A DNA stretch of 64,000 bases from Crossaster papposus (taxonomy: Eukaryota; Echinodermata; Asteroidea; Velatida; Solasteridae). The position numbers and the translations under genes were made by a program. This document shows positions 20,001 through 46,056 of this stretch, in pieces (the first letter of the stretch is position 1; every line of letters starts with the position of its first letter). The stretch spans positions 310,001 to 374,000 of the forward strand of contig JBAIAA010000029.1 in NCBI GenBank assembly GCA_037893245.1, given 5' to 3'. The notes below the pieces were generated by a model, which was not told where the DNA came from, ran no database searches, and saw nothing but the letters and a program-made list of their open reading frames with translations.

Positions 20001-23000
20001 TATTCAGAGTTGTCATAGGTACATTGTTTATACACAGTGTAAACTATAATAAGAACATAAAGAGAAAGTTAATGGCCTGCTTGTCATCAAGCGGGCACGG
20101 CCTGGCTCAAGCCTAGTGACCTTAGGAGTGATTTTAGATGAGTTATACATGTAGATAAGCATAATCAGCACATCACATATTCTTTAATAAATGTTTGAAT
20201 AGGCTGTTGCTGTAAACAAAGTTATTTAAAAGATACATGATGTACATAAAAATGTTTAAATTTCCAAATGTCATATCAAGATAAGAAAACAAAGTCTGAA
20301 GGCTATTAGTCACGGTTTGTAGAGTTCATGAGAGTCCTTTGTTACATTATATCATGGAGGAATAAGAGCAGATATACCGTTTCAGTTGATTAATCTATTA
20401 TAGGTTTTCCCGGCCAATTTCATCACAAATTTATTCAAATTCATTAACACGCATTCAAATTCACGCCATTCCTTCTGTGACAGATGGAAACGGGCTCTTC
20501 AAGTCTTGAGATGGAATTCATGTTTTTATTCTTTCATGATCAGTGGCATGCATGTACGCGCAACCAGCGCTGTGAAAAACTTTCTCAAGAACAGCTTTCG
20601 TGTCAGTGGCTACTTCAAGACTGAACCATTGGACCACATGATATGTTGGCCTGTGCCTCACATTCCTGGGCAACTATCAAGGGATTATAAGAGGCAATAA
20701 ACAAGAGTAACTAAAACCTCATGAATAATAATGAGTTGGGGGGCAGTGAGTATAATGGTGATTACTTTAGCAGAGGATTGGAATGTGGTTGACCCTGTGG
20801 CTCTAGTACTTGGTTGTATCATGGAGGAATTATTCCTCCATGGTTGTATGTACAATGTACATTGAGTGTTGAAGGCTGATGCAACGGAGCATTAATTTTC
20901 AAATGAAATTAAATAAACCGGGTATTAAATTGATTGAAATTATGTTTAAATTCGCCGGGGAAACCTAGGCTATATTAACATTAAACGGGTATCAAGAGTT
21001 GGAAAGCAATCAGTCGAAATATATGCGCGTTGGTATTTCCAAACATTTTTAAACAAGTTATGTCGTTACGAAGAAATATTAGATTAATTCATTGATCTTG
21101 GGTATTCTTTTTATTAATAAAGCTTTCATTTTGGTTTACATTGGCCATTTACATTAACGTACACGTATACTACAATATCTAATCTAGTCTACTTTGCTAA
21201 CTCTACAGGGTTGATCACCGATCACGCGCCCCACCATCGATCGCGGGATAAATTCATTCACCCCTCGCAAAATATCATCACCACGCGCAAAATTCCATCA
21301 CCGATCGCAAAAGTTGATCACCGATCGCGAAAGTCCATCACCGATCGTGAATATGCAACACCTGTTACGCCCATCAGCGATCACGTGGAAAAGTTGATCA
21401 CGCGCTCGCAAAAGTTGATCACCGATTGCAAACTTCATCACCGCTCGCAAGAGTTCATCACCGCTCGCAAAAGGTTATCACCGCTCGCAAGAGTTCATCA
21501 CCGCTCGCAAAAGGTTATCACCGCTCGCAAAGGTTGATCACCGATCGCGAACAAAAGACCATCACTCGATTACAAAAGTCCATCACCGATCGTGAAAGTA
21601 CATCACCGATTCGATGATCACATTAAATGCCTCTTTGGCGTTCCATAAAAAACAACATTGCGGGGGTATGACGCAAAGGAAACTCACACAAAACGACTCA
21701 CAAATATAATTTTTAAATGAAGTCATTAAAACGGAAATTACATACAAAGATTGACGGTTTTCTGTAAATAAACTTTAAAAACCTTCTTTCTCTAAATTAT
21801 AGTTTCGGCATTTTTACTAGGAAAAAAACCCCAAAATATTTATTGCGAGTGTGGGCAACAAATTACAAGCATTTTAAAAGCGTTGTCATCAAACAAGAAA
21901 ATACAAATTATTTTTGTTTTACTTGCCGTGTGAAACTTTAGTGTCGCACCATTTTTCTTTCCTTGTTTTTTTTTTACTTTGGGAGCAGTCAGGGCGTAGC
22001 GAGGACATTGAATCAAATTTCATAAATTTGCCTTGACATTTTGGGCTGCATTATCTTTCTTCTGAGCGGAACCCATCACCTATTCAACAGTTTACTGCAA
22101 AAACCATGTGTATTGTGCAGGCCTATTTCTTCAACCAAGGTTAAGAATTCAGATTAATAGTTCTGTTAAAAATTGAACTGAGGTGAGGATTAAGATCTCA
22201 GTGACTGTTGAATAGGTGATGGGTTCCGCTCAGAAGAAAGATAATGCATCCCAAAATGTCAAGGCAAATTTATGAAATTTGATTCAATGTCCTCGCTACG
22301 CCCTGACTGCTCCCAAAGTAAAAAAAAAACAAGGAAAGAAAAATGGTCACTTAGTCTCAAGTCTCGCAAGAACTTAGGGTCAAATGGGGGTCAATGTACA
22401 CTTGACGATAGATGATGAATAAAGTATGCTGGATAATTACTGAGAAGGCTTTCTGCGCTATTTTCTTCAGTCGGCTTTTGAGCCTGCAATGGGCCATTTT
22501 GGGGCAAATGGGCTCATTTTTTTGAGTGATTTTTTGTTGTGGTCCAGTTGCTGACTGAGGCTTGAAATGCCGATTGAGGGAAATTACTTGGGTGTGACAC
22601 ACCAACACATATTCGTACGCATACAAATACAGCGGTGTTATTATTTTGACATAACTAGGACTGTACATGTGTTTTCCTTACCTTTCCTATGTGAACGTTT
22701 GCAAAGGAAAACTTCCACAGAGCCAGGAAATGTCCGTAAGAAATGATTCCTTCTTCTTCGATTCCACGTGCCTGAATATTGTTTTACAAAATGAAATTGC
22801 TATTATTTTGGGCAAACTCATTTGGCCAGGCACGCAAGGATCGAGTTGTAAATCTAACTTTGACCCAAAATATAATATTGACAATTTCAAATAAGATCTT
22901 TGTAAATGTGACAAAATATATAATACAACCCTGTAAATGCAATCTTTATCGTTGGCTATTTTGAGGGCCGTGGGAGTAGAGAGAGGGGTTTGAGGGGTAA

Positions 23001-24347: not shown

Positions 24348-26030
24348 ACATGTACATGTAAATGATATACATGCACATGTAAATGATGTACATGTAGTAT
24401 AAAACGAAGAGTATCGAATATGGGGATGCAGTCAGTCCGCAGCGCACTGAAAAGCCGTTCATTTTATGTGCGCTTTATGCATGGCACTTTGTGGGTGACC
24501 TCGTTTTTGAATACCTAATGAGCTGGCGACGACGCCTGGAATTTGGTCCGAAACATCCGTTTTATTTACCGACTGTCAATATTAGGTATATTTTCTTTTG
24601 GATAAGAAAACATTATTGTATAACATACAATTATATTAGAAATTATATGACATTTAGAGGGTGAAATTTATAACGTAAAAAAAGCTTCCGAACTAACAAA
24701 TTGACCTTCAGAAAACGAAGAGATTTTCCCATTTTCTGGCGGTGGCCACAACCCAATTTCACACTGATGTTAAAGATAATTTCATATTCTATCGAAAAAC
24801 TGTCGATTTGGGGTTGATTTTAACTTAGTCCAGTCAGGGCGCAGAAAATGCTAACGTCCACAAGAAAGTAACGAACGGAATATCCCACCATGACAGTCCA
24901 TAGTCTTCCTGCGCCCTCATTGGTCGAAAATGACGTCATTGAAAGGGCTTCGTGATGATAGGTGGTTTAGAGGTCAGTGGGTGATAGTGATACCCATACT
25001 AGAGAGGCGGCCGACATGCTGATAGCGTGGCTGCGATGGCTGTGGTGGGCATGGCCATGGTGGTGGACGGCATGACCTACTGTCTACATGTAATAAGAAA
25101 CATATTGGAAGACAGAAAAAGGAACTGTGAAGTTTAGCAGTAACTATTAAACAAGTTTTATAACTTTGAACAAAACGTAGGCCTAAGTCGTTTTTATACA
25201 AGACAAATCAATTGTGTATGCATGACATGAAGGCAGAAACTTGGGCATATAAATAAGCCACAAAAAACAAAACAATTTACATGTTCATGTACATGTACAT
25301 GTGCTTGTGTGCATAATACAGTAATACACGCTCTGCGTATTAAGTACACGCCGAAAGACATGGCCGAAAAAAAGTAAAAATCGCGCGCACGAGAATCGCC
25401 GCAGAATACATGAAAAACATGTCGCCACAGGCTAAATTGTATATCAAACGAAAGATCATTGCTAATTTCTTTATCGACGTGTAGTGATCATTTTTGGCAA
25501 TATTTGTTAGTCCAGTCAGGGCGCAGGAACTAAACACACGACAAAAAAAACCTTAAAATAATCATACCCTAAGTTCGAGTGAACGGAAATCTGCCAAAAA
25601 CATAATGAATCTCGTTATATTATATATCATTCGATTCAGAACAACGTTCGCTTTTCACTTTCCACGCCATCTTGGAGAATAACTGCTCCGTTTGCAACGT
25701 GTAGCTCGTTAAAACAAAGCTGCCGAACTTTCGAAATTACTCGCGTAAATCTCGTTGCCGATTTGCGACGCCGGCCGTGCAAATCAAGTTCGGGATATTG
25801 ACCTCATTAACGCGTGCGCTGCGGACTGACTGGATGCTGCCGATATGAGAGCACGACCCAATGTACGTCACATGTGGGGGGTAGTCTGTTAGAGACAGTT
25901 AAGGAACCTGCTGCTGTATATGGCGCTACTAGACTCTCTCACCTTGACGCGGCGTGTACCGTACCATGAGCGAGTTCCTCGGGTCACCCGTTTGTTTTCA
26001 TATAAATCACACGAATTCCGTCGGTGTATT
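24348..26030. other. Region upstream of the DUF7869-like gene
   Basis: No exon recognised. Close to the ATG are repeated ACATGTAAATGATGTACATG-type words (24351-24396). A 19-bp perfect inverted repeat (24429-24447 and 25814-25832, CAGTCAGTCCGCAGCGCAC) encloses a 19-bp direct repeat TAGTCCAGTCAGGGCGCAG (24826, 25508). The promoter is presumably in the first few hundred bases but cannot be pinned down. Confidence 0.45.
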
Positions 26031-29000
26031 GCATGTTATGTATTGCGTCCTACCATGGAGGAATAAGGCTTATTCCTCCATGGTCCTACCATAGACATGG
26101 AGTTTTTTTCTCTCCATGTCTATGGTCCTACCATGGTCCTACATACAAGCTAAAACCTTTTTGAGAGCGGACCACTCCGGAGGATTTAAAAACATTAGGA
26201 TTAAACCTACAACCTACTAGGTTGTAGGAATTTTAGAAAATAAATAATGCAATGGTTGATGAAGGGCACCTTAGTTTTGTTTAAGTTTATTTTTACAAGT
26301 TTTCTCTGACAATACTGGAAAAAATACAAAACAGACTATTACATACACAAATTATGAAATTTTGGCCTAAAATGTCAACTGATGAATCAAATTTTACAAA
26401 ACTTGGCCTCACTGAGATGTCCTAACAACATCCCAAACCACATATCAGAAAAAAAGACTTTCATGGAAAATTAAAACATTTTGGGGCAAAACTTATGTTT
26501 TAATGCACTTTGTCCCAATTCGGGAACATATATAATGAAATGTTGGCCTAAAATGTCAACTGATGGATTAAATTTTACAAAACGTGGCGTCAGATATCGT
26601 AACAACATCACAAACCAAATTTTAGAAAAAAAAAAAACCTTCATGGAAAATTAAAACATTTTGGGGAAAAACTTATGTTTTAATGCTGACTTTGTCCCAT
26701 TTCGGGATCTTTTTAATGAAATTCTGGCATAAAATGTCAACTGATGGATCAAATTTTACAAAATTTGGCGTCAGATGTCGTAAAAACATTGCAAACCACA
26801 TATCAGAAAAAAAAGGACCTTCGTGGAAAATTTAAACCTTTTGGGGCAAAACTTATGTTTTGTATGTTATGTATTGCGTCCTACCATGGTCCTACATACA
26901 AGCTAAAACCTTTTTGAGAGGGGACCACTCCGGAGAATTTAAAAACATTAGGATTAAACCTACAACCTACTACTAGGTTGTAGGAATTTTAAGACGAATT
27001 TGGACCATATTTGAAGTGCGTTGACATCAATCATGAAGGAACCAACTGCACTTTTTGTTTTAGAAAATAAATAATGCAATGGTTGATGAAGGGCACCTTA
27101 GTTTTGTTTAAGTTTTTGTTTACAAGTTTTCCCTGACAATACTGGAAAAAATACAAAACAGACTATTACATACACAAATTATGAAATGTTGGCCTAAAAT
27201 GTCAACTGATGAATCAAATTTTACAAAACTTGGCCTCACTGAGATGTCCTAACAACATCCCAAACCACATATCAGAAAAAAAAGACTTTCATGGAAAATT
27301 AAAACATTTTTGGGCAAAACTTATGTTTTAGTGCACTTTGTCTCATTTCGGGATCTTTCTAATGAAATTTTGGCCTAAAATGTCAACTGATGGGTCACAT
27401 TTTACAAAACTTGGTGTCAGATATCGTAACAACATCGCAAACCAAATTTCAGGAAAAAAAGGACCTTCGTGGAAAATTTAAACATTTTTGGGCAAAACTT
27501 ATGTTTTAGTGCACTTTGTCTCATTTCGGGATCTTTTTAATGAAATTTTGGCCTAAAATGTCAACTGATAGGTCAAATTTTACAAAACTTGGCGTCAGAT
27601 GTCGTAACAACATTGCAAACCAAATTTCAGGAAAAAAGGGACCTTCGTGGAAAATTTAAACATTTTGGGGCAAAACTTATGTTTTAGTGCACTTTGTCTG
27701 ATTTTGGGATATTGTTAATGAAATTTTGGCCTCAAATGTCAACTGATAGGTCAAATTTTACAAAACTTGGCGTCAGATGTCGTAACAACATTGCAAACCA
27801 CATAATAAGGAAAAAAAAGACCTTCATTGACATTTTTTTTAAAAATGGGCAAAACTTATGTTTTAATATGCACCTTGTCCCATTTCGGGATCTTTTTAAT
27901 GAAATTCTGGCCTAAAATGTCAACTGATGGGTCAAATTTTACAAAACTTGGCGTCAGATATCGTAACAACATCGCAAACCAAATTTCCGGAAAAAAGGGA
28001 CCTTCGTGGAAAATTTAAACATTTTGGGGCAAAACTTATGTTTTAGTGCACTTTGTCCCATTTCGGGATCTTTTTAATGAAATGTTGGCATAAAATGTCA
28101 ACTGATGGGTCACATTTTACAAAACTTGGCGTCAGATATCGTAACAACATCGCAAACCAAATTTCAGGAAAAAAGGGACCTTCGTGGAAAATTTAAACAT
28201 TTTGGGGCAAAACTTATGTTTTAGTGCACTTTGTCTGATTTCGGGATATTGTTAATGAAATTTTGACCTCAAATGTCAACTGATAGGTCAAATTTTACAA
28301 AACTTGGCGTCAGATGTCGTAACAACATTGCAAACCACATAATAAGGAAAAAAAAGACCTTCATTGAAATTTTTTTTTAAAAATGGGCAAAACTTATGTT
28401 TTAATATGCACCTTGTCCCATTTCGGGATCTTTTTAATGAAATTCTGGCCTAAAATGTCAACTGATGGGTCAAATTTTACAAAACTTGGCGTCAGATATC
28501 GTAACAACATCGCAAACCAAATTTCCGGAAAAAAGGGACCTTCGTGGAAAATTTAAACATTTTGGGGCAAAACTTATGTTTTAGTGCACTTTGTCCCATT
28601 TCGGGATCTTTTTAATAAAATTCTGGCATAAAATGTCAACTGATAGATCAAATTTTACAAAATTTGGCGTCAGATGTTGTAACAACATCACAAACCACAT
28701 ATCAGAAAAAAAAGACCTTCATTGAAAATTTAAACTTTTTTGGGCAAAACTTATGTTTTAATGCTGACTTTGTCTCATTTCGGGATATTTTTAATGAAAT
28801 TCTGGCATAAAATGTCAACTGATGGATCAAATTTTAAAAAATTTGGCGTCAGATGTCGTAAAAACATTGCAAACCACATATCAGAAAAAAAAGGACCTTC
28901 GTGGAAAATTTAAACCTTTTGGGGCAAAACTTATGTTTTGTATGTTATGTATTGCGTCCTACCATGGTCCTACCTCTAAAACCTTTTTGAGAGGGGACCA

Positions 29001-29810
29001 CTCCGGAGGATTTAAAAACATTAGGATTAAACCTACAACCTACTACTAGGTTGTAGGAATTTTAAGACGAATTTGGACCATATTTGAAGTGCGTTGACAT
29101 CAATCATGAAGGAACCAACTGCACTTTTGTTTTAGAAAATAAATAATGCAATGGTTGATGAAGGGCACCTTAGTTTTGTTTAAGTTTTTGTTTACAAGTT
29201 TTCTCTGACAATACTGGAAAAAATACAAACAGACTATTACATACACAAATTATGAAATGTTGGCCTAAAATGTCAACTGATGAATCAAATTTTATAAAAC
29301 TTGGCCTCACTGAGATGTCCTAACAACATCCCAAACCACATATCAGAAAAAAAAGACCTTCATTGAAAATTTTAAAAAAAATTGGGCAAAACTTATGTTT
29401 TAGTGCACTTTGTCTGATTTCGGGATATTTTTAATGAAATGTTGGCCTAAAATGTCAACTGATGGGTCAAATTTTACAAAACTTGGCGTCAGATGTCGTA
29501 ACAACATCGCAAACCAAATTTTAGGAAAAAAAAGACCTTCATGGAAAATTAAGACATTTTGGGTCAAAAATTATGTTTTAATATGCACTTTGTCCTATTT
29601 CGGGATCTTTTTAATGAAATTTTGGTCTAAAATGTCAACTGATGGGTCAAATTTCACAAAACTTGGCGCCAAATGTCGTAACAACATCGCAAACCACATA
29701 ATAGAAGAAAAAAAAGACCTTCGTGGACAATTTAAACATTTTTGGGCAAAACTTATGTTTTAATGCACTTTGTCCCATTTCGGGATAATTTTAATGAAAT
29801 TGATCTTTTG
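26031..29810 (+). repeat. ~178-bp satellite with 250-bp inserted block
   Basis: About 17 monomers of 175-185 bp (landmark GCAAAACTTATGTTTTA). Three copies of a distinct ~250-bp block (26031-26290, 26859-27125, 28937-29195) that starts ATGTTATGTATTGCGTCCTA interrupt the array. A three-monomer higher-order unit of about 540 bp repeats at 27690 and 28230. ORFs inside are period artefacts. Confidence 0.9.
26053..26125. repeat. Two adjacent short hairpins
   Basis: A 31-bp perfect palindrome (CCATGGAGGAATAAG, arms 15 bp, 26053-26083) is followed by a 14-bp-arm hairpin (CCATAGACATGGAG, 26089-26125). The other two copies of the satellite block lack both, so they are insertions into this copy. Confidence 0.8.
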
Positions 29811-32263: not shown

Positions 32264-32467
32264 ATGCCAAGCAAACGATCCTGGTGGTTTGAACCAGACC
32301 CGGAAGGCGAAGATGGCAAGAACTGTACCATTTTTGTCATGGCGCTCTCGCAAACGGCAACTGGTTGGAGGGAAATCAGACTACATCATCCTATCGGTAG
32401 AGGAAAAACGCTGAAGTACTTCAAAGCGGTCACAGATCTTACAGTTTGCGACGGTGGTCAGGTGAAG
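32264..32467 (+). CDS. ParB-MTase gene, exon 1
   Basis: 68 codons, ATG with purine at -3, donor AAG/GTATGT, phase 0. Encodes MPSKRSWWFEPDPEGEDG and a WREIRLHHPIGRGKTLKYF stretch; no family recognised. Confidence 0.75.
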
Positions 32468-34572
32468 GTATGTTTCAAATTTCTTTATGTTCCATTAATA
32501 TAAATATACACATTTAATTGTATACTTTGAGATCTTCCTGTAGTTCATAATTACGTCATACATGACGTACGCGTGTGAAGATGCTTCTGAACCTAAACAT
32601 ATTGACACAGCTATATAGGGCAGTAAATGATCTAAGTGTTATGGTAAAGTCGAATGGGGGAAAATACTTCTATTTTTTGTAGCACATAATAATAATATAT
32701 TTTTATCACGTGTTTATTATTTGTTTTAATTAGTTATTACTTGTTGTCACTGTCATCGGTTCGACGTCTTGGCAGATTCAGTCTGCGATTTATTTTTGGT
32801 GTATACACATTAGGCCTACACGTACATATACAGTTTGGACAAAAGGCGGTAAATAATGCGCCTATCAATTGCCTATAAAATCATGCAAATTGACAGCAAA
32901 GGGGGGGGGGGGGACAATATACACCAAGTACAATTTTACCCTTTGTACCATATCTCAATTGTACGTCGAAAAAGTCACACTTAACTAGTTTTGTTTGACT
33001 CGTGGAATTGCTTTCACTAGCGGGTGCGTGCGTATATTAAAAATACATACATATGTACATGTACATACATTTTGTAATTGAAAAAGTCACATGACCAAAT
33101 TTAAACCAATATTCTTTTTAAATTATTCTATTTAAACAACATATCCTTTTAGTTCTAGATGGAACGTCTTTTTAACTCATCCCGACAATGACTAGCTCTT
33201 TCTTCAATATTTTTTTGTAAATATAGAGTGCACGAGCCTAATTCAATTCCCATTGAAAACATTGTATAATCGACAATGTTCAGGACCAAGTTTCGTGCAA
33301 CAATCAGATTATTGCCTTGGTCTTTACCTTTTCATTTCTTTTTACTTTGTAGTGGGTTAGCCAATTACATTTTTTTAATATTCACACCAAAAGAAACTCA
33401 CCTCCCGAAAAGTGATACTTTTTTTAAAATGATACTTACTATTTTACAAATGGAATCCCTCCACGTTCTAGGGCAAATAAGACCCATTTTCAACCGTAAT
33501 TGTATCAAGTCTGCCCTCAGATTAAATAAGCTCAAAAACCAGCTCAAATATAACCAGTGGCTATATTTACACTATCCCACTTTTTTTCCCAACGGTCTCC
33601 TTTAAAACAAAACAATTGAGGGGGGGGGGGGGGGGGGGGCACATTTCATGCTAATGAACTCGCGTATAAATTCTCCCTTCAATTAGGGTAGTGCACCCTA
33701 ATACTAGTCCTTTTTGTTTTACTACAGTATGCACCATTCGCTTTTGCTGTAGTTTTCAAAAATGGATGAGTTAGGAGATTCATTTGTTATAGTAAATATT
33801 GTGACGCTGACAAGAGTGTAGTGTACTTAGAAGCTGGAAAAACCAAGAAAAAGTGCTGGTCTTGCAGTCTGGTGTATTGACTTGCTTCAAACGAATTTAA
33901 TAAGTTGAGGGCAGTGTTTAAAAACATTCAGGTTTTTAAACGATTGCTGGCCGGGAATCGTTTAATTTTGTTATACAAATTCCACTTTTCCTGAAAACCA
34001 CATCACATCATGTGCCGTGATTTTACAAAATTAACAGGATGCTTGAGACTGTTATTCACAAACAATCAAAGTTGTTCATAATATTAATTTAGTATTTTTT
34101 TATGTTTGCAAATGGTGTTTAGAATTATCACGGTGTTGATCTTGTGTATTATAAAGTCAACGTATTATCTGTTGATTGGAATGGATCGACGTCCAACCCA
34201 ATTGTATTTACATGTAAATCGAATCTACACGGTACACACAAAACTAGTAAAAATTGAAAAATGTCAAAATGCTGTTCACAGGTCCATTTCGAAGATGGTC
34301 AAAGGGTTGCCAAATCAAGAGAGCACTTCGACTGGAGTAGAAACCTCTTTTCAAAGAAATTCCGGAGGTCGGTGACCGCAGCTTCCTTTGTCAGTGCTTT
34401 CAGAGATGTATGTGGTATCACTAATGATGATGTTACCTGGTCAACTGTGACTGAGACACAACTACCGGTAAGCTGTAGTGTTAGTTAGCTTATTACAAGA
34501 GTAATCAGTAAAGTTTCGAGGAGATAATTGTATTTGTTTATTGAGGGTTACCCCCCCCCAAAAAAAAAAAAA

Positions 34573-34608
<36 letters not shown>

Positions 34609-37600
34609 AAATAAAAAAGAAGAAGAAAAAAGAAGACATATATATATATAGATATACATATATGTAAAAAACTATTACAACAAAAATACAGATTAAACAA
34701 TTACTCCCAAAACGGACAAAACACAGATACACTATCATCAACCAAACAATAATAACAAGAATATTATTTGTTAGTATAAATATATGGGCTACCTAATTTG
34801 AATTTCTACGGAATTTGATTGGGTTCGGTTCAGGTAAGAAGCGTAATTAACTACGGGTTACAATACAATGTCTAAACAAATCTTACTTAAATGAAACAAT
34901 GCATTGGTTGGTTATCAAGCGTGACTATGACTACAGAACATGAGTAATAGTCCCAGGGAAAATACTTAACTTGCCAAATTTGAAGCTCACCAATACTGAC
35001 TACTTGAAGATATCTGAAGACAAGATAAATGCGTGAAAATTATAGGGTATGATTGTAGTCATTTTGGACCATTACTATATTTTCATAATTATTCAGTCAC
35101 TTACAAGCTTTGAAAAATTACGCGGCAGGGATTAACGATTTATGCAAATTAGTCATATTTCCACCATTTATTTTGGAGATTTTTAGTATGTCATTATAGG
35201 GACCTTATAGAAATGCACTGTGGTGAAAAATATTCTATTGCAATTTGTGTGAGGTCCAAACGTATTTTCCCGGGACTATAAACCCAGTCGTTTTATTTGA
35301 GTTCAATTCAATTCTAAAAGTAAGTAGGAGTTTACATTATTTTTCTCTGTCACAATTCACAGCAGGAGAGCGCAGAATCAACACCTTCGGGATCTTTCAA
35401 TGACTCGCAAGACACGAGTGGTGCAGTTTTCGTCAGTTTACGGGATTTACAGGATAGTGACACTCCCAGCACATCTGGATCAGCAGAATCACAACAGGTT
35501 TTTGTACAAAGGTAATCAAATATATTTATAACATAACAAACACTGGAATGCGCAATATTCACATTCAGTGTATACAAACCAAACTTTCCCATTACCAGAC
35601 AAAGCCCGGTCTAATGCGTTTTTGGCGAAACGTGCTTTCCCAGGTTCGTATTTATAAGCGTCGTGTGCTCCCCCAGAGTTAATATTCATGTATTGATATT
35701 TGTCATCAGAGATATACTTTCAAATTCAGGGAAAATTCGATGCTCACAGACTATAGTTTCCTAATAAATTTAAATTATATGCGAAGATAAATCGGAAAAT
35801 ATACAGGGGTCCAACAAGTTTTGTATTTTTTTCTCAATTTCTTCAGGGTTTGTCTCATTAGTTTTCAGAAAGGTCCCGGTAATTGTCGTTATTATTACTT
35901 TCTGTGTAAGTTTTTTTTGGGGGTACACTATAAAAGCTGTAACAAAAAATATTTCGCCCCGCGCACACGAGGTCGAGAGAAATCAGGGCACAAACACATC
36001 AATTCACGCCGCGATTCAAGGCCCCCGATTCTTTCCGCAATGTGATGGATGGTACCCCAAAAGTCACAGTATTCCCTTTGACAAGTGGGGGATTAGCCCA
36101 CTGATTTCCCTTGACCTCGTGCAACGGCTCTGTTCAAAAGATATATAGTTGTCAGTCCAGATGTGATTCCAATTAACTAAAGCTATCCAGAATCGATGTT
36201 GTGCCACTTTACAGTTTGCACGTGTGTTGTGTGAATATTCTCCACAGAGAAGTAATCGCCCACGTGTAAAATTAATCCTGGATATTGTGGCCCTGAAAAC
36301 ATTTTTTTTCTAAAAGTGGCACACACTGTCTTGATTGTTAGTGCTGGTGGTTAATCAAACATATCTTTTAATTGACAAAAGCCAATAAGGTAAAACAAAC
36401 GGCATTTGAAAGCTGATCTGGTTATCTTGTAGCTCATACAAACACCCATAGCAAGTTCCGATTTGTTTATATTTTTTTCGGGGGGGGGGGGGGGGGGGAC
36501 ACACTGATTATGTTTGATACACCATTGGTTATTGCTTGAATTATCATAAATGGGTAGATTTGGGGGGTTGTATTTTATAGTCATTTATGCCGAGAAAAGC
36601 ACGAAAAAATCGTTTGTTTTCAACCAGCGTCGAGCAGTTATTCTTAAGTTATCTTTGTTTTAACGCGGCGATCGCGAATCTTTCTTTATAACATTATATT
36701 TTTCGGAATAATTACAGGATATCTAGCGCAATCGTTTTGCTTGATGCCTAGAATCAATATTTACTTTCAAATGAGTAAAATATTTCTCATTTAATTTTAT
36801 TTCCCATAAACCTTTAATTTGTATCCCTTTATAATTGTTTCCAATCACTGCAGACAAAGTACCGGTAGTAAAAAGAGAAAATCTCTTGAAACCAGTGATG
36901 TCCCCGGATTACTCAGAAAAAAGAGATCTGCAAAGCCTACCAAGATGAATGCTACCACCAAGGACGATGCACGTCGTCTTCTGACTGAAAGTGTTCCAAA
37001 ACACGAAGTCGGTATGTATAGTACCACGATAATCAATGCCCATGCCACAAACAATCTGTCATCATGCTTTCAGCAAAAGTGAACAGAAAAACTTCGGTGG
37101 TCTAAGCACATTGAATGAGAAGGGGGAGGGGTTTGGGGGGGGGGGGGGGGGGGTTGGGTTATTATTGTATCAAAATGTGAGACATTTTTGATGGTTTAAT
37201 TAGGCCTATTGTAAATTATTATGTAAATGCGAATGTTGCCATTGCAACTAAGACCGTTTTTTACAAGTTCTAGGCCTATACCTGAATTTGTTGGTTGTCT
37301 AACAACATTCTTGTTTGTTCTGTTTATCATATCGTAATGGTAATTAAAAAACAAACTCCAACGCCTAATGGCATCAGTTTATGACAAATGAAGACCAATT
37401 TTTTAAAATGTAAAACATCTATATGCCATGTGAAATTGTCAGAAGATACGCACATAGACAAATATACGGTCTGTTAATATGCATTGACTTACAGTTTGCT
37501 ACTGAAAGGATTTAACAAAATTGACCAAATTAATTTTACCAAAATAATGTATTTCATTACCTCATCGTGTACAACTTTTTTCCTGTAACAATCTTCATTT

Positions 37601-40600
37601 TCAGCCACCAATATTTTGATAAACATATCAAACATGGGGTTAGGCGAGCAGGCCAGAACTGTGGACAAAACATTCTGCAAGTCTTTGACGAAAAAAGTGA
37701 GGGAGTTTGTGGACAACACTCACCAGGCCTTGCTGCTACATGTTGAAGATGTGGGGGTTAAAGATTATGACCCTAAAAAGGTATAACTTGTGTGTTGTGA
37801 TGTCAAATCTACAAAAACATATATATATTGGCTTCGGGAATAAAAACCCTCTTCTGGTCACTCACAGTCTTATCAGGACGATTATAGACGGGCTCAAAGT
37901 GACCCCATTGCCGGTCTAGTGATGTTGTGTATCATAGTTTTCTTTTGCTGAAAAATCACACAGGCAAACGGGTACAGCTACACGGTGATAGGCGGACAGC
38001 ACTGCTTCCTGGCCATGAAGGCCCTGTCCAAAGAGCAACCGGACAACAAGGCACTACAGGCCCGGAGATGTGTTGTATATGCTGGTCTTAACCAGGAGCA
38101 GATGCTCTGGTTATCTAATGAACATAACCGAACAGGACAACTGCGGCACGAAATATCATTCAAGGACAAGGTGGGTGTCTTATTTCATAACAAAACTCCA
38201 TGACTATTTAACGAAGCTGATCGTCAAATTCAAGTTTGCAATGTGGTATAAATCAAATGTTACATCATCTTCACAAACCTGAAGCATTGTTCGCACAATA
38301 TCGAAAAATTAATGATATATGCAAAAGATCGGTCGTGAAGCTTGACTGAAGCGCTGCAATCAAACAGTTACAGTTACTCACGTACTCATGCTTTATACTT
38401 ATGTGCGATTATACGTGCATGGATTATAATGTGGGTGTGCGTGAGTTTGTTTTTTATTCGAAGGTAAGATACAACATTTGCAGATATCGAGAAATTTACT
38501 AGCAAATTATTAAGAAATATCTTTTGTTATTACTGAAAGTAAATAATGATTGTAGGCACCAAGCAAAAGGTTTGCGCTAGATATCCTGTAATTGTTCCCA
38601 AAACATTTATTTTATATAACAAAATCACGATTGCCGGACGGCCATCGCGCAAAAAACCCACACAAAACATAAGAACAACTGCCCAACGCCAGTTGAAAAC
38701 AAACGCCGTTTTTCTTTCTTTTCTCAACTTCCAGATTGAAAAACTTCGGACAGGTCAATTAAACAATATTTACTCTAAAATACACCCCCCAAAGCAACCC
38801 ATTTAAGCAATTACCAATGGTGTATCGTATAGGGACGTAGAACCAATAAGGGCAATAGGGACACTTACAAGTCACTTAATCACTCTGCACCAGATTATCT
38901 CTCCCCTCTTCTCAAAATCCACAAGAGTCCTTACTCCCTTCGTTCTTCTGCTTGTGAGTCTCTTGTTATCCCTAAGTCACATAAATTGGCTGGTGACAGG
39001 GCCTTCTCTGTTGCCGCCCCCCGGCTATGGAACAACCTGCCCATCTCCATCAGAAACTCAGGCAGTGTTTTTTCCTTCAAAAAAGCTCTCAAGACCTACC
39101 TTTTTCCCCAAACGTAACTGCATGTCCTTTTCTTTGTTGTTTTTTTGTCTTCTATTCCTCTTTCTTCCTTTCTAGCGCCTTGTATCCTTTGGTAATTTGG
39201 CGCTATAAAAATCCAGTTATTATTATTATTATTATTATTTGGAAAAGGTCCCCGATTCCGATTCGTGCACAAAACATATGGGAGGTCTTCTGAAAGAGTA
39301 CAAACAAAAGAGGGACAGGGACAGGGGGTCCCTGAATGGAGGCGTATATACACTTGAATTGTGTGCAGACGGCCTTGCATGGATAAAAGAGACTTTACTA
39401 CAATTTCCTCTCGATTTCCTCCCATTAATAATGGGGACCTGGGCAGGTAGAAAACAGACCCGCTGATCTTAACCTGATGCAAAATACAACAAATGCAATT
39501 TGTTTTTTACTAAATTATAGTTGCATGTGTTTGAAAGATAATTGTTATTTTACGTAATTTCAATAAAGGTATCAATTTGCAGAAAGCGATTGCAGGACCT
39601 GGCAGACACACCACGCAAGGTAGCAGACTGGAAGAAGTCCTGCTGCGTCATTTTAGATGAGGTAAAATACATGATAATGAGGTAAAATGCCGATTGGGTT
39701 TGTTTTGCATTCGACTTCATTTGGAAACGGTTTCTCCACCTAGAATAGCCTTTAAAACACTTCGATGCTACCGTACTGTAATTAATATCATTATACCTCT
39801 CAAGTAACACAAATAAAATGGTTAAACAATCCATGTATTCATTGTCTCTCTTTTTGTAGCAAGAAAATGATCTGAGAACCATTTTCTTCGTTGCTCTTTT
39901 GAGCAACGACGCATATAGCATTTTTCTGCAAATCGTGGAAATGTATGAGTCAGGGGACATCAAGGGCCAGAAATTGAGAAGAGGGGATTTCGTTGCCACT
40001 CCCGACATTGCAAAGGTGGCATACACTTTGCTGCCGCTATCGGGGTTGCACGAAGAGACGGCCAATGAGCTTCTGCAGCAGGTTGCTGACGGAAAGCTAA
40101 GCACCGCAGAGCTGAGAAGGGATGCTACTGAGGTGAAGAAGCTTATCCCGGTAAATATGCTTTATTTAAATCTTGGAATTGTGACCCTTCATCCAAGTTT
40201 CCGCATTCAAAATTTGCTTCCTAAGTCGCAAATACATGCATTCGAAAACAAAATATATATTTGACTTTTTGGCCATACATGAACAGTGCAACTCTTTCAA
40301 CCAAACACAAATGGAAACAATAGCCATTATCTTGTATATCTCTTCTGTATACTTTGTATATTTAAAACGGTGCCGTGTTGTTATTGTGGGGCCCTCTTCC
40401 AATTTTGTGTATAGAGCCTTGGGCCTTGAGAGTCCAAAGCCAAGTTGGCCTGGTCCTGAGGATCAAGATTTGTGCTCCAACACCGATAAATATATAGCAA
40501 TTTACGACACTAATTGTCCCCTTTGAAAAACGACTTTGACTTCACACCTGTCAAGTGAATGTACGTAAAACATTAAATGCATCATATTTGCACGTAGGCC

Positions 40601-42989
40601 TATTTATTTCATCAAAATGCGTCCAATTTAAAAGGTAAAATACAATATAAAAATACCAATCTGGCATAAAAACCTGAATTTCGTAAACTTCATCAATACG
40701 TAACTTTTCATCACGACGCTGATCTTATTAATTTCTAGCCATTTTGTTGTTGTCATAAACAAGATTCAGAAAGCCTTCTGCGACCACACGGGTTGCACGA
40801 CTTGGCAAGATGCCAGCACAAAATACCCCGAGACAGCCACACGCGAGGTCCTGTCGCGCTTTGCCCCAAACTTTAAGGCTGGTGATCTAGAATTCAAGAG
40901 CTTCTGCTTGAGAATAAAGCACCAGCACGAGTTTGGGGTACCGAGCGACCTGTACTCCCACAACTCCTCAATCGGGTGTGTGATGACATCAGACGTAATG
41001 AGCATCACTCCCGATGAGATCAAAACCCATTGGCCTGGTTTTATTGGAGCGGACTTGACCATCATTGACCTGCCCGAGGTATTATTTTTACCACTGAATT
41101 ATTAAAGGGGTACATTGTCTTGCGATTAAAAACAAAAATTGTTTCAGAATATCAGAACAATTACAGAATATCTAGCGCAATCATTTTGCTGGAAGCCTAG
41201 AATTGTTATTTACTTTCATTATTTAATTTACAATTGAAATTCGGTAGTAAAATGTTTCCTATACCTTCAATACAGACATGTAATCTGCGAAAGAATTGTT
41301 TGCTTGTACAACAAATTAAGAAATGTGTTTGTCTGTGTTACAGGAGTGGACAGAGGAAGAGCTGGCCACATTTGTCAGGACATTAAAAAACCTGAATGGG
41401 GCAAAGAGCTCGTTCCGGTTGGTGGTTGTGTGCCCACCACATAGAATGTACATGGTAAATTGCGTACTGGCAAAGACCAATTTTTTTCTACAAACGGAGG
41501 ACGCATTTTATCATGTCGTTAATGCCACAAGCAACAAAGGTTCGTTTTATTGTTTTTCTATAATAATTATAATAATAATAGGCAATCAATAATGCGCCAT
41601 TACCACCCTAATGAGATGCTCAAAGCGCAGCTAATAAAAACAAGATAGCCACATGATATAAAACGTGGACATTACACAACACAACCTGACAATCAAATGA
41701 ACGAATGAGCTAATCGAATGCAACTTGAAAGACGTGGGTCTTCAGAGCACATTTGAACTCTTGCAATAAAGACACATTGACCAAGTATTACTTTATTCAT
41801 TAAATGTACACCTGATCATAAAGTGTCTAGGGAAGGTGTTAGCTTTTCGTATTCTCCATACCTATTTACTCATAATATTATTGATAATGATTTCGGTCAA
41901 TATATTTGTCACACAGAAGACCCAACTTCACTCTTCTATCCAGCCGTCGGAGGACTCGTTATGGCGTTCTTCGAACACACTGGACAAATTCATCCAGCCC
42001 GATTTAACATCAAGCAGTGCCAGGAGAATATGTTCAGTGTGTTCAAAGAACCACTGAAAAGGGACGACCAGGGGGTTATCATCAACAAGGCAGAAAAGCC
42101 GGCTGAATTGATGCTAAGCCTGGTCAAGCTTCTCACACACAAAGGGGATGTGGTATTCGATGCCTGCTGTGGAACAGGTTAGTAATGTATCCACACACAT
42201 CACAATTATTTAAATGTACACCTTACATTTATAAAGTACTAAAACAAGTTCATGTTTACATGATACACTCATTGCAATACATTCACGACACACCAAACAT
42301 GTATAATTCGAATGCAACACTCGCCTTTAATCAAACAAGTAGGCCTATATATCGAAGGCACTAATATGCAATGTTGATGACAATGTATATTTGTTCAGGT
42401 ACTGTGCTAATGGCGGCACTAGTCCAAGAGAGAAGCTGTGTAGCAGTCGATAGTGATGCCAGACAAACTGAATTTCTCGATACATCTTGTCTTATTGCCT
42501 TTGGTGAGGACTTTTCGCTACAAATAGCAGGTAAGGATCTTCTAACATCGATATAAAATCTACGTGCACATGCATCATTTGAGTACAGTAACCTAAACAG
42601 CGCAAAAAATCAGTCATCAGTCAAAAATACCAGCCACATTGAAGGTGTCGCACAAAACAGGAAAATCCAGTTATGCCTTGTAAAGTTCAACCAATATAAG
42701 TTTAAAAGCAACCAGATTTCACGGACGTCCGCATTTCATGAGTCATCGGAAAAGTGTATAAAACTGGCCCCAGTGTTTTATCGGCCACGTGACGGGCTCC
42801 CGACCCATAGGCATTGGTAATCTGTCTGAAGTGTGAATTTGTCTTTAAACAATATTGATTTTTTATTTGCCTACAGGTGACGATGATGATAAAGATGATG
42901 ATGATGATGACGGGGAAGAAGAAGACGGTGGAGAAGATGACGAAAAAGAAGATGACAGCAACCCTGGTGAGGAAGAGGATACCCCGTAA
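32264..42989 (+). CDS. ParB-like domain / permuted amino-methyltransferase fusion, 13 exons
   Basis: Predicted 818 aa from 13 exons with matching phases. Residues 1-130 are an unrecognised N-terminal region; 131-180 Ser-rich; 181-208 two basic clusters (KKRK, RKKRSAKP), a likely bipartite NLS; 234-385 a ParB/Srx-like domain with YTVIGGQH (297-304) and NEHNRT (343-348); 386-520 a helical linker; 520-781 a methyltransferase-like domain in beta-class order: motif IV position IDLPE (581-585), VVVCPP, KP (711-712), motif I FDACCGTGT (731-739), AVDSDARQ; then an Asp/Glu tail to 818. Bacterial and phage ParB-DNA-methylase fusions share this order. Motif I keeps DxxxGxG, so AdoMet binding is plausible; motif IV has lost PP[YFW], so catalysis is doubtful. 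The likely role is DNA binding or modification in the nucleus (inference). Closest alternative: part of an unrecognised mobile element. Confidence 0.83.
32901..32913 (+). repeat. Poly-G tract, intron 1
   Basis: 13 G on the sense strand of the ParB-MTase gene. Confidence 0.9.
33620..33639 (+). repeat. Poly-G tract, intron 1
   Basis: About 20 G on the sense strand. Confidence 0.9.
33690..34130. mobile_element. Diverged MITE copy in intron 1
   Basis: Matches 43980-44020 plus 46484-46520 (GCTTTTGCTG...AAATGG, then TATAGTAAA) and 46965-47195 (GATGCTTGAGACTGTTRTT, GCAAATGGTGT). It is therefore an uninterrupted relative of the sequence into which the TTAA element at 45611 inserted. Confidence 0.6.
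34282..34467 (+). CDS. ParB-MTase gene, exon 2
   Basis: 186 bp, phase 0 to 0; acceptor TTCACAG/GTC, donor CCG/GTAAGC. Encodes VHFEDGQRVAKSREHFDWSR and a FVSAFRDVCG helix. Confidence 0.78.
34948..35278. mobile_element. 331-bp TA-flanked MITE, intron 2
   Basis: Inverted ends GTCCCAGGGAAAATAC and GTATTTTCCCGGGAC lie between TA dinucleotides (Tc1/mariner-like). Other copies: 3356-3545 and 53400-54507. Confidence 0.75.
35363..35511 (+). CDS. ParB-MTase gene, exon 3
   Basis: 149 bp, phase 0 to 2; acceptor TTCACAG/CAG, donor AAAG/GTAATC. Low-complexity Ser/Asp/Thr-rich linker (STPSGSFNDSQDTSG). Acceptor choice may shift by one codon (NAGNAG). Confidence 0.7.
36480..36498 (+). repeat. Poly-G tract, intron 3
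   Basis: About 19 G on the sense strand, immediately before a MITE copy. Confidence 0.9.
36500..36785. mobile_element. MITE (GGTAGTATACACCATT family) copy, intron 3
   Basis: Shares ATACACCATTGGTTATTGCTTG, ATGCCGAGAAAAGCACGAAAAA, GGCGATCGCGAATTTTTC-like and TACAGGATATCTAGCGCAAT with the full copy at 46527-46915; the right end is lost. A 90-bp fragment of the same family is at 41150-41250. Confidence 0.7.
36854..37011 (+). CDS. ParB-MTase gene, exon 4
   Basis: 158 bp, phase 2 to 1; acceptor ACTGCAG/ACA, donor GTCG/GTATGT. Encodes the two basic clusters of a putative nuclear signal and a DDARRLLTES helix. A MITE copy sits in the intron just upstream. Confidence 0.75.
37135..37153 (+). repeat. 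Poly-G tract, intron 4
   Basis: About 19 G on the sense strand, preceded by GGGGGAGGGG. Confidence 0.9.
37605..37780 (+). CDS. ParB-MTase gene, exon 5
   Basis: 176 bp, phase 1 to 0; acceptor TTTTCAG/CCA, donor AAG/GTATAA. Opens the ParB-like region: FCKSLTKKVREFV, then VEDVGVKDYDPKK. Confidence 0.78.
37964..38170 (+). CDS. ParB-MTase gene, exon 6 (ParB signature)
   Basis: 207 bp, phase 0 to 0; acceptor CACACAG/GCA, donor AAG/GTGGGT. Encodes SYTVIGGQHCFLAMKAL, RRCVVYAGLNQEQ and SNEHNRTGQ. GGQH stands where ParB has its G-[EH]-x-R box and the NEHNRT matches the ENxxR box. Cys replaces the usual Arg after GGQH. Confidence 0.85.
38878..39240 (+). mobile_element. LINE ORF2 C-terminus and 3' tail, 5'-truncated
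   Basis: A reading frame ending at 39117 contains GDRAFSVAAPRLWNNLP and FKKALKTYLF, diagnostic of the end of CR1/L2/Jockey-type reverse-transcriptase ORFs. A short 3' UTR ends GGCGCTATAAAAATCC and (ATT)n at 39217-39240. It sits in intron 6 of the ParB-MTase gene in the sense orientation. The frame is intact, so the insertion is fairly recent. Confidence 0.85.
39587..39661 (+). CDS. ParB-MTase gene, exon 7 (5' edge uncertain)
   Basis: Encodes RLQDLADTPRKVADWKKSC to LDE; donor GAG/GTAAAA. With acceptor GAAAG/CGA it joins exon 6 in phase 0. The stronger-looking acceptor TTTGCAG at 39582 gives the same frame only if a small phase-2 exon lies between 38171 and 39582. A residue or two may therefore be missing. 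Confidence 0.6.
39860..40150 (+). CDS. ParB-MTase gene, exon 8
   Basis: 291 bp, phase 0 to 0; acceptor TTTGTAG/CAA, donor CCG/GTAAAT. A 97-aa helical segment (IFLQIVEMYESGDIKG, HEETANELLQQVADGKLST) with no recognised family. Confidence 0.8.
40770..41078 (+). CDS. ParB-MTase gene, exon 9
   Basis: 309 bp, phase 0 to 0; acceptor GATTCAG/AAA, donor GAG/GTATTA. Ends ADLTIIDLPE, the position of methyltransferase motif IV. Also contains CDHTGCTTW. Confidence 0.83.
41344..41539 (+). CDS. ParB-MTase gene, exon 10
   Basis: 196 bp, phase 0 to 1; acceptor TTACAG/GAG, donor AAAG/GTTCGT. Encodes EWTEEELATFVRTLKNL and FRLVVVCPPHRMYMV, the helix and strand that follow motif IV in beta-class enzymes. Confidence 0.8.
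41917..42177 (+). CDS. ParB-MTase gene, exon 11
   Basis: 261 bp, phase 1 to 1; acceptor CACACAG/AAG, donor ACAG/GTTAGT. Encodes KAEKPAELMLSLVKLL and GDVVFDACCGT, i.e. the KP...L box and the first half of motif I. Confidence 0.85.
42399..42530 (+). CDS. ParB-MTase gene, exon 12
   Basis: 132 bp, phase 1 to 1; acceptor TGTTCAG/GTA, donor GCAG/GTAAGG. Completes motif I (GTVLMAALVQE) and has motif II-like CVAVDSDARQTEFL. The intron splits the motif I loop. Confidence 0.83.
42877..42989 (+). CDS. ParB-MTase gene, terminal exon 13
   Basis: 113 bp entered in phase 1 after CCTACAG; encodes an Asp/Glu-rich tail ending NPGEEEDTP. The GAT repeat makes length polymorphism likely. From 42891 onward it lies inside the tandem duplication. 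Confidence 0.8.
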
Positions 42990-43276
42990 ACAATAGTTCC
43001 GATAAATTCGTGCAAATTTATCCCAGCAAATTTGCGCAGTGTATGTTCACGCATTGTCATACAATGTTCTGTCTAACCCACCGAGATTTACAATCGTTCT
43101 GAATACTCGTTTCATTTTGCTTGCAGTCTATTCTACTTCACTTCCATTAATAAATTTGTGTGCATATTACTAAATCAAATTCTTTAAAGATGGACTACAA
43201 CGGAATAATGATAAAGGCTGTGTTGCTGTTTTTGTTCGAGAAATGTATAATGATTACTAATATATCATTAGTATTC

Positions 43277-43282
43277 AATAAA
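43277..43282 (+). terminator. Poly(A) signal of the ParB-MTase gene
   Basis: AATAAA about 290 bp after the stop, followed by an A-rich stretch (43300-43312). It is duplicated at 44860. Confidence 0.55.
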
Positions 43283-44027
43283 ACTTGTTCCTTCATGCAA
43301 AAAAAATAAATTTGATCGGCGTTCTACGACCCAGAAAAACCCAGTTTTAGCAAAAGCCCTTAACTCATGAATAATTCATACTTTGTGTGTGACGTACTAC
43401 CCATGACGATTTACTCGGATCGATCGTGTGCGTGCATACATAATACACACAGAATAACATGGCGTCTTTTGTTTACTCTCGGTTGATCATGGGTAGTACG
43501 TCATCACTTTTCGCTGGTTTACAAGTCCGCTGGTACTATATCGTGGATTTCATTGTGGTTTTCAGTGGATCTTTGCCGGGAACCAGTACAGGGCGGGAAA
43601 TTTCAAAATCGAAGAATCGAGATCAAATTTTTTCGGTCAAATTGCAACGAAATTATTTAGAGAAAAACATGGCCGCAACAATAAAGTGTTACCTGAACAC
43701 AACATAAACAAGGTCCGATAATAAATTTAATGTGTGAGTTTTCGTTGTAGTCCATCTTTAATGCTATTCTTTAATTCGTTGGAACGATTTCCTTTCAATA
43801 GGAATTATTCAATGGTTTGTTGTTATTTAAGTTTGCATACAAAAGCGCTGCGTTTTTGTAAGACTTTCAATCTACTTAAAAATAATTCATAAAGAGAAAA
43901 TTGAAAGGACTACAAATTCCTATTCCAGAAGCTATTGTTATCATTGTCGTTTCAAGTATGTTAATGAAAGATAATATTGGCCTACTCCATTTGCTTTTGC
44001 TGAAATTTTCGGAAATGGGTGGGTTAA

Positions 44028-44473
44028 GCCCCTGTCACACTTGTCCGAATCGTCACTCCGTTCATATTCCGAGTAAAAAATTGTGGATTCGGTGTTTAAT
44101 CGGTTTGAACTGAACTCAAACAGAATTCCCTCGGTTTCCCTCGGTTTCCCTCGGTTTTCCAACGCTATATACTCGTGTACGTTCGGTGATGTACTGAGGA
44201 ACTCGGAGAAATTATTGAACCTGTTTAATAATTTCTCCGAATTGTCGCGGCAACTTCAATACGGACGGTATCCGGTATACACACGGAATATGCACGGAAT
44301 ACACGGAAAACACACTGTACTCATTCGTTGCCATTCGTTGCAATGCGGAATAGGTACGGAAGAGTACGAAACAGTTTGTAGTGCACGTTGTAAAGTCTTG
44401 AACTTGAAGCGTTGTGAGAGAAGGTGCCGGGTGCGCTCCTTGTTATAGCCGTCCCACCCTCGGTTGCCGTTCT
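44028..44473. mobile_element. Truncated copy of the TTAA element
   Basis: The left 446 bp of the element, cut by the tandem-duplication junction; TTAA at 44024-44027. Confidence 0.88.
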
Positions 44474-44572
44474 AAAGATGATGATGATGATGACGGGGAA
44501 GAAGAAGACGGTGGAGAAGATGACGAAAAAGAAGATGACAGCAACCCTGGTGAGGAAGAGGATACCCCGTAA
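44474..44572 (+). pseudogene. Partial copy of ParB-MTase exon 13
   Basis: Duplicate of the acidic-tail coding sequence including the stop codon, lacking the first 14 bp and the 3' splice site. It cannot be spliced in as is. Confidence 0.85.
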
Positions 44573-46056
44573 ACAATAGTTCCGATAAATTCGTGCAAAT
44601 TTATCCCAGCAAATTTGCGCAGTGTATGTTCACGCATTGTCATACAATGTTCTGTCTAACCCACCGAGATTTACAATCGTTCTGAATACTCGTTTCATTT
44701 TGCTTGCAGTCTATTCTACTTCACTTCCATTAATAAATTTGTGTGCATATTACTAAATCAAATTCTTTAAAGATGGACTACAACGGAATAATGATAAAGG
44801 CTGTGTTGCTGTTTTTGTTCGAGAAATGTATAATGATTACTAATATATCATTAGTATTCAATAAAACTTGTTCCTTCATGCAAAAAAAATAAATTTGATC
44901 GGCGTTCTACGACCCAGAAAAACCCAGTTTTAGCAAAAGCCCTTAACTCATGAATAATTCATACTTTGTGTGTGACGTACTACCCATGACGATTTACTCG
45001 GATCGATCGTGTGCGTGCATACATAATACACACAGAATAACATGGCGTCTTTTGTTTACTCTCGGTTGATCATGGGTAGTACGTCATCACTTTTCGCTGG
45101 TTTACAAGTCCGCTGGTACTATATCGTGGATTTCATTGTGGTTTTCAGTGGATCTTTGCCGGGAACCAGTACAGGGCGGGAAATTTCAAAATCGAAGAAT
45201 CGAGATCAAATTTTTTCGGTCAAATTGCAACGAAATTATTTAGAGAAAAACATGGCCGCAACAATAAAGTGTTACCTGAACACAACATAAACAAGGTCCG
45301 ATAATAAATTTAATGTGTGAGTTTTCGTTGTAGTCCATCTTTAATGCTATTCTTTAATTCGTTGGAACGATTTCCTTTCAATAGGAATTATTCAATGGTT
45401 TGTTGTTATTTAAGTTTGCATACAAAAGCGCTGCGTTTTTGTAAGACTTTCAATCTACTTAAAAATAATTCATGAAGAGAAAATTGAAAGGACTACAAAT
45501 TCCTATTCCAGAAGCTATTGTTATCATTGTCGTTTCAAGTATGTTAATGAAAGATAATATTGGCCTACTCCATTTGCTTTTGCTGAAATTTTCGGAAATG
45601 GGTGGGTTAAGCCCCTGTCACACTTGTCCGAATCGTCACTCCGTTCATATTCCGAGTAAAAAATTGTGGATTCGGTGTTTAATCGGTTTGAACTGAACTC
45701 AAACAGAATTCCCTCGGTTTCCCTCGGTTTCCCTCGGTTTTCCAACGCTATATACTCGTGTACGTTCGGTGATGTACTGAGGAACTCGGAGAAATTATTG
45801 AACCTGTTTAATAATTTCTCCGAATTGTCGCGGCAACTTCAATACGGACGGTATCCGGTATACACACGGAATATGCACGGAATACACGGAAAACACACTG
45901 TACTCATTCGTTGCCATTCGTTGCAATGCGGAATAGGTACGGAAGAGTACGAAACAGTTTGTAGTGCACGTTGTAAAGTCTTGAACTTGAAGCGTTGTGA
46001 GAGAAGGTGCCGGGTGCGCTCCTTGTTATAGCCGTCCCACCCTCGGTTGCCGTTCT
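44474..46056 (+). repeat. 1583-bp tandem duplication, copy 2
   Basis: Near-identical to copy 1; one difference seen (A at 43891, G at 45474). It carries exon-13 coding DNA without its splice acceptor, so it is a dead exon copy. It continues into the complete TTAA element. Confidence 0.93.

Follow-up and report, generated by a model that had tools for sequence, protein, structure and literature searches.

The 64,000-nucleotide stretch of the Crossaster papposus (Asteroidea) genome considered here, referred to as the window, corresponds to positions 310001-374000 of contig C29 in a 1.02-Gb assembly of 1841 contigs. COX1 on the mitochondrial contig C1841 follows the echinoderm code: aligned with a mammalian COX1 chain, 6 of 7 AAA codons stand at Asn positions, 13 of 21 ATA codons at Ile and 13 of 13 TGA codons at Trp. 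It contains an intron-rich gene for a protein in which a probable ParB-like region precedes a predicted DNA methyltransferase. With a probability that we estimate at about 0.8, this methylase gene belongs, as its second gene, to a giant echinoderm DNA transposon of recent activity, in which a DUF7869 partner is combined with a ParB-like/methylase accessory protein. The element spans 49.8 kb and ends in terminal inverted repeats flanked by 4-bp target duplications, and its methylase gene occurs in at least 13 near-identical copies. A preliminary description, made from the sequence of the window, had taken the gene for a lone transferred host gene; the copies, the transposon ends and the target duplications contradict this. 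The features of the element are as follows.

3592-53345, no strand: whole transposon, 49,754 bp, with a TTTG target duplication on both flanks; ends common to other copies, flanks unlike
3592-3614, plus strand: left terminal inverted repeat, identical to the right end at 20 of 23 bases
4049-6096, minus strand: subterminal 42-bp satellite of the left end, opposite in orientation to that of the right end (similarity of the inverted arrays about 71-72%)
15704-24431, minus strand: DUF7869 gene, putative RNase-H-type transposase; partial model that may extend further
24431-23145, 18448-18293, 17568-17347, 17186-16776, 16282-16124 and 15991-15704, minus strand: pieces of the DUF7869 gene, two recognized by Pfam and the others by eye
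26354-29800, no strand: central satellite, three arrays of units of about 180 bp, between the two divergent genes
32264-42989, plus strand: gene for the ParB-like/methyltransferase protein, 13 exons, 815 amino acids; spliced model, copies compared
42890-46056, plus strand: 1,584-bp tandem duplication (42890-44473 and 44473-46056, 99.9% identical) starting within the last exon of the methylase gene; single in contigs C251, C553, C17 and C3
47826-52940, plus strand: right subterminal 41-bp satellite
53323-53345, minus strand: right terminal inverted repeat

A search of the genome DNA with exon 11 of the methylase gene yielded 13 full-length copies with 98-100% identity on 13 contigs, including the window's own. 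Around four of the other copies (C251, C17, C3 and C553) 50 kb were read, while the remaining ones are known from their exon 11 match. With satellites masked, colinear pieces of at least 200 bases were 92-99.6% identical between copies, with the lowest values in C553, and this similarity reaches far past the gene. The right end ...TTAATGTGTT is common to the window, C3, C251, C17 and C553, and the flanks following it are unlike. The left end at window position 3592 falls on the same base in C17 and C251, similarity with C17 continuing to base 7933. The terminal inverted repeats are imperfect, with 20 of the first 23 bases pairing. Of the three testable copies, two had perfect 4-bp target duplications, which read TTTG in the window element and ATAT in C17. 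Less favorable to the transposon interpretation are the third of these copies, C251, where GCAT faces ACAT and three of four bases agree, and C3, whose left repeat was lost or replaced so that its target duplication is unreadable. About 4 kb of the window copy (9579-13582) are missing from C17 and probably constitute a nested insertion.

The 13 exons of the methylase gene splice into a single open frame of 815 codons plus stop, and all 12 introns are of the GT-AG type. An exon 7 start at 39583 was ruled out, since the reading frame is lost with it; the correct start is 39596. Apart from this shift, the 13-exon animal gene with host-style introns proposed in the preliminary description stands, also with respect to its splice sites, which are kept in the intact copies, and the intron-rich ParB-like/methylase gene is real. 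Its parts are listed below.

32264-34467, plus strand: exons 1-2 (32264-32467, 34282-34467), N-terminal region, residues 1-130, without family match in Pfam or PHROG
35363-37011, plus strand: exons 3-4 (35363-35511, 36854-37011), linker including a basic stretch
37605-37780, plus strand: exon 5, first half of the putative ParB-like region
37964-38170, plus strand: exon 6, putative ParB-like core with GGQH and HN motifs, both invariant in 10 aligned sequences
39596-40150, plus strand: exons 7-8 (39596-39661, 39860-40150), linker, with similar sequence in C409 and C235 and weak similarity in C537
40770-41078, plus strand: exon 9, start of the methyltransferase, with the motif IV position (IIDLPE) at its 3'-end
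41344-41539, plus strand: exon 10, opening with EW after motif IV
41917-42530, plus strand: exons 11-12 (41917-42177, 42399-42530), KP box, S-adenosylmethionine (SAM) motif I (FDACCGTGT) spanning the junction, and AVDSDARQ; PF01555 match at residues 705-756
42877-42989, plus strand: exon 13, acidic tail, which falls inside the segment duplicated in the window copy

In C251, C17 and C3 the full 2448-nt coding sequence is present without indels or stops and with every splice site kept. Differences from the window amount to 0.37%, 0.29% and 0.16% in the exons and to 0.40%, 0.51% and 0.35% in the introns, respectively. The C553 copy covers 1570 of the 2448 coding nucleotides; it differs from the window by 1.5% and has one base inserted. 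Since introns were copied along with the exons, the element moved as DNA. Information on selection came mainly from C833, an older, truncated copy. Where it covers exons 4-8 (778 nt), 16 of its differences from the window are synonymous and 10 non-synonymous, which gives a ratio of non-synonymous to synonymous rates (dN/dS) of 0.16 (Fisher P 7e-6); 73 of 2129 intron positions differ, 2 coding bases are deleted and 1 is inserted. The low dN/dS therefore indicates protein-level selection on the ParB-like stretch between the window and C833 copies. C553 differs from the window by 14 synonymous and 9 non-synonymous changes over 1570 nt; a Fisher test that set these 14 against the 7 non-synonymous changes of exons 7-12 was discarded, as the two counts cover different sets of exons. 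No constraint is visible among the young copies, whose non-synonymous to synonymous counts of 6/3, 6/1 and 3/1 are too few to test, a point against the favored explanation. The host-style introns and the selection on exons 4-8 would also suit an ordinary host gene derived from a single horizontal transfer and serving in host DNA methylation. At the window locus this explanation is contradicted by the at least 13 near-identical copies and the precise ends with target duplications, and diverged relatives adjoin DUF7869 as well; we consider it highly improbable.

The DUF7869 gene lies head to head with the methylase gene in the element, the two being divergent. PF25273 (DUF7869) matches two of its pieces with expectation values (E) of 1.4e-25 and 6.6e-14. 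Among 135 open reading frames of the element (at least 58 amino acids, outside satellites and the methylase gene), only DUF7869 stands out in Pfam, with two open reading frames; nine other Pfam families reached E 0.006-0.05 with one frame each. The minus-strand pieces read IDGMDQRKT, QLDNCFRENKNR and GHTHEDVDQ, which seem to resemble the acidic motifs of an RNase-H-type transposase. The judgement of these motifs was made by eye, which is a weakness of the transposase assignment. Genome-wide, at least 177 DUF7869 matches were obtained, with 150 of 358 candidates scored. The word DUF7869 was found nowhere in the literature searched.

Diverged relatives elsewhere in the genome retain the methylase-DUF7869 pairing. 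The methylase half gave 137 genome matches, many of them diverged, with identities of 32-46% for pieces of exons 9-11 and 53-61% for exon 12. The ParB region gave 78 genome matches, and exon 6 of diverged loci is 39-53% identical to that of the window. We compared by eye those contigs outside the window's own family that carry both genes no more than 30 kb apart among the matches listed (n=15). In 14 of them the methylase relative and DUF7869 are divergent and 6-27 kb apart, as in the window: C409, C641, C235, C304, C787, C444, C37, C553 (1.83-1.85 Mb), C599 and C537, and, recognized by exon 6, C890 (1.23-1.24 Mb), C691, C854 and C299. Several loci do not fit this arrangement. The fifteenth contig, C1070, has exon 12 only, about 0.2 kb from DUF7869, and looks like a rearranged fragment. 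In C192 and C890 (0.83 and 0.94 Mb) the two genes are 60-110 kb apart and were excluded from the count, and DUF7869 sites such as those in C353, C644, C336 and C123 have no methylase among the matches listed. Fragments of the gene were also observed. In C633 (106359-124884) an exon 9 fragment recurs at 1,282-bp steps or multiples thereof, with 12 units listed, so that a gene fragment became a tandem array. Fragments of ParB exons, interrupted by stops, lie at four places in C87 (243364-454072); they are old broken relatives, the longer ones being 86-92% like the window.

The C-terminal half of the protein is predicted to be a permuted beta-class N6-adenine/N4-cytosine (N6A/N4C) DNA methyltransferase, and several comparisons support this. 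PF01555 (N6_N4_Mtase) matches with E 1.8e-9 (38.3 bits, cut-off 26.7), limited to residues 705-756, and two PHROG methylase families match as well (phrog_3008, E 3.4e-11; another, E 6.9e-11). The phage proteins matched by the window protein are ordinary beta-class methylases. A profile built from exon-joined pieces of four families was compared with 40 phage ParB-methylase proteins; it aligned over 220 columns with E 7.2e-8 and a score of 59.4, while 40 column shuffles reached at most 23.0. The motif order IV, KP box (X), I is permuted: GADLTIIDLPE aligns on kAnLVxTDPPY, and the KP box and motif I align on their counterparts. The permuted methyltransferase of the preliminary description was thus confirmed by PF01555 and by the motif order in the profile.

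An intron lies at the same place, after the fourth residue of motif IV, in the window as well as in each of the nine loci read from other families. The motif itself is IDLPE in the window, VNLPQ in C235 and C800, IDITE in C537, VDPPM in C199, C751 and C251 (1.28 Mb), VDPPK in C544 and C890, and ADPPD in C409. The fourth residue, normally aromatic, is M, K, D, E or Q in the window and these nine loci, from all of which the catalytic [DNS]PP[YFW] is absent. Where the exon after motif IV was read, it opens with EW in three cases (window, C409 and C235) and has W in C537; one might speculate that this tryptophan two residues past motif IV has a role. Because the aromatic residue is absent and the first proline of motif IV is lost, the protein of the window family may bind SAM and DNA but not methylate them; methylation may persist in the families with DPP.

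If the protein methylated adenine or N4-cytosine of element DNA in the window and the other families, the transposon would carry its own bacterial-type epigenetic mark. The SAM-binding motif is kept, as is DPP in C199, C751, C251 (1.28 Mb), C544, C890 and C409. However, the fourth residue deviates everywhere, DPP is missing from the window, C235/C800 and C537, and the degenerate DLPE argues against methylation by the window protein in particular, so that such general activity appears doubtful. An inactive methylase that serves as a DNA- or RNA-binding scaffold, for which METTL14 is the comparison case, is tentatively conceivable; it would agree with DLPE in the window family and with NLPQ and DITE in two others, but not with the DPP kept in three other sequence groups.

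The region preceding the methylase is probably ParB-like. This reading is favored mostly by the agreement of three features, namely the two boxes, the order in which they occur and the methylase downstream of them. The conserved boxes of ParB are G-x-R-R..A and E-N-x-x-R. In the 10 sequences aligned here GGQH...A and HN are invariant, although the nucleotide-binding arginine is not conserved. A ten-sequence profile placed GGQH on GGHQR, CVVY on cVVv and HN on NK. The preliminary description had postulated the ParB-like region. Its order of parts is that of phage fusions and its boxes are ParB-like, but support is modest: a library match is missing and the profile margins are narrow. The description had also suggested a profile comparison with Pfam, in which N6_N4_Mtase was significant and ParB was not matched, and a structure prediction, for which exon 6 was folded alone.

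Several results count against a ParB-like region. No match above noise was obtained for it in Pfam, PHROG or the PDB, and no ParB or sulfiredoxin chain of the PDB was found by profile; for residues 1-480 nothing in Pfam or PHROG rose above noise (the best E, 0.013, missed its cut-off). Alignment of single sequences with hhalign detects the methylase and not ParB, and when the ParB region is represented by a single sequence, 411 of 1527 scored shuffles rank ahead of it. The four-family ParB profile scored 22.4, and 2 of 60 column shuffles were higher (27.5 and 23.8). With ten sequences the profile surpassed all 200 column shuffles, by the narrow margin of 22.01 to 21.93, the reversed profile scoring 10.1. 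The exon 6 model had a mean predicted local distance difference test (pLDDT) score of 62.7 and showed three strands and one helix, with a strand in place of the ParB helix expected after the glycine-rich box; at this low confidence it would be uninformative or mildly unfavorable to ParB. A resemblance of residues 41-88 to the J-base-binding protein (E 0.62) was treated as chance.

The missing library match, the narrow margins and the exon 6 model would also be expected if the region before the methylase were an unrelated, family-specific domain resembling ParB in GGQH and HN by chance. We regard this as unlikely, since two ordered boxes are invariant in 10 sequences in front of a phage-type methylase and fall into the ParB register by profile, and since Pfam ParB_N itself comes near or below its cut-off in phage fusion proteins. 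When four methylases of the phage comparison family were scanned, ParB_N was above the Pfam cut-off in one, just below it in two and not found in the fourth (L047). The missing Pfam ParB match in the window thus weighs little, because only one of these four fusion proteins passes the cut-off.

The phage set was assigned as ParB fusions on the basis of ParB_N in three of the four scanned proteins (one above cut-off) and the annotation of one record. Three of the four, L045-L047, are among the 40 proteins of the methylase comparison, the other 37 being outside the ParB_N scan. The fusion family was reached through Javan558; the corresponding ParB_N/methylase gene (L044; Streptococcus phage Javan558, MK448983.1, 12012-14123) seems to be interrupted by an intein, with PF14890 and Hint_2 below their cut-offs. 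The first phage methylases scanned (L001-L004, L036, L037, L040 and L041) had no ParB_N in Pfam, while L034, L035, L038, L039 and L043 were outside that scan. A tblastn search with the ParB region gave no plasmid match and, against phages, a single match with E 1 that we attribute to chance. Pattern scans with the window protein, which detect close relatives only, yielded 16 pattern matches in IMG/VR and 42 in prokaryotic genome contigs, with no relative among them. An ancient transfer from a prokaryotic or phage source may nevertheless underlie the gene.

A survey of the ParB-CTPase fold (PMC12704722) states, in its available part, that fusions to N6_N4 methylases are more frequent in phages and that sulfiredoxin is the commonest eukaryotic form. 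The window gene resembles the phage ParB-CTPase-fold/N6_N4 fusions (PF02195 and PF01555) in that a beta-class methylase in permuted order comes after a putative ParB-like region, an order of parts which the preliminary description had recognized; the methylase profile matches these fusions with E 7.2e-8. In contrast to the phage fusions, it is an animal gene with 13 exons, an extra N-terminal region, a linker in exons 7-8 and an acidic tail, has GGQH instead of GGHQR and a degenerate motif IV, and is carried by a DNA transposon. Sulfiredoxin, with its signature GGCHR, shares with the window protein the GGxH core of the ParB/Srx superfamily; it differs in that the window protein has glutamine at the position of the catalytic cysteine and a methylase following.

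Mobile elements with DNA methylase genes have been described before, namely virus-integrated Mariner elements with an endonuclease and a methyltransferase (PMC3627910) and retrotransposons with cytosine methyltransferases (PMC5890265). As far as the available portions of these papers go, the methylases belong to other classes and no ParB-like domain is mentioned, whereas in our study the pairing with DUF7869 recurs across diverged relatives in one genome. The accessible text of PMC3627910 also describes Sola2 transposons with AT-rich 4-bp target duplications (e.g. ATAT), some of which have captured proteins. The window element shares with them short imperfect terminal inverted repeats and 4-bp AT-rich target duplications, but it is 49.8 kb long and contains introns and satellites; this comparison concerns ends and duplications, not the transposase. 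In the available part of a study on giant transposons (PMC6431247), the term methyltransferase occurs once, in another context. We found no description of an animal or transposon-borne ParB-methylase in the literature searched, subscription journals and Repbase lying outside the search. A transposon-borne DNA methylase is already known as a kind, and the architecture and the DUF7869 partner are new.

As to function, DUF7869 would act as transposase, cutting and joining the ends of the element and so moving it as DNA. The ParB-methylase would have an accessory role: it would load onto DNA of the element itself, most likely close to the satellite arrays that adjoin the ends. By marking or covering this DNA it might help transposition or allow the element to evade host silencing. 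A giant animal transposon lineage with its own bacterial-type marking, in which a ParB-like clamp on satellite-flanked ends is joined to a methylase that still works in the DPP families and has become a reader or clamp without methylation activity in others, is a speculative and somewhat unlikely extension of this model.

The occurrence of native N6-methyladenine (6mA) and N4-methylcytosine (4mC) in animals is disputed. A bacterial-type methylase kept across diverged relatives of an animal transposon is a concrete candidate source of 6mA and 4mC and a directly testable target. The findings also outline a two-gene giant transposon lineage around DUF7869 and suggest that ParB-like domains may have entered animals in a setting besides sulfiredoxin.

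Two further observations were made outside the element. To its right, window positions 57379-58455 on the minus strand hold an unbroken frame of 359 codons which, judged by eye, has the look of a seven-helix receptor. In C8, a contig of more than 5 Mb, stop-free COX1 matches at 2872001-2873343 and 5208663-5210009 perhaps point to a bacterial symbiont or contaminant.

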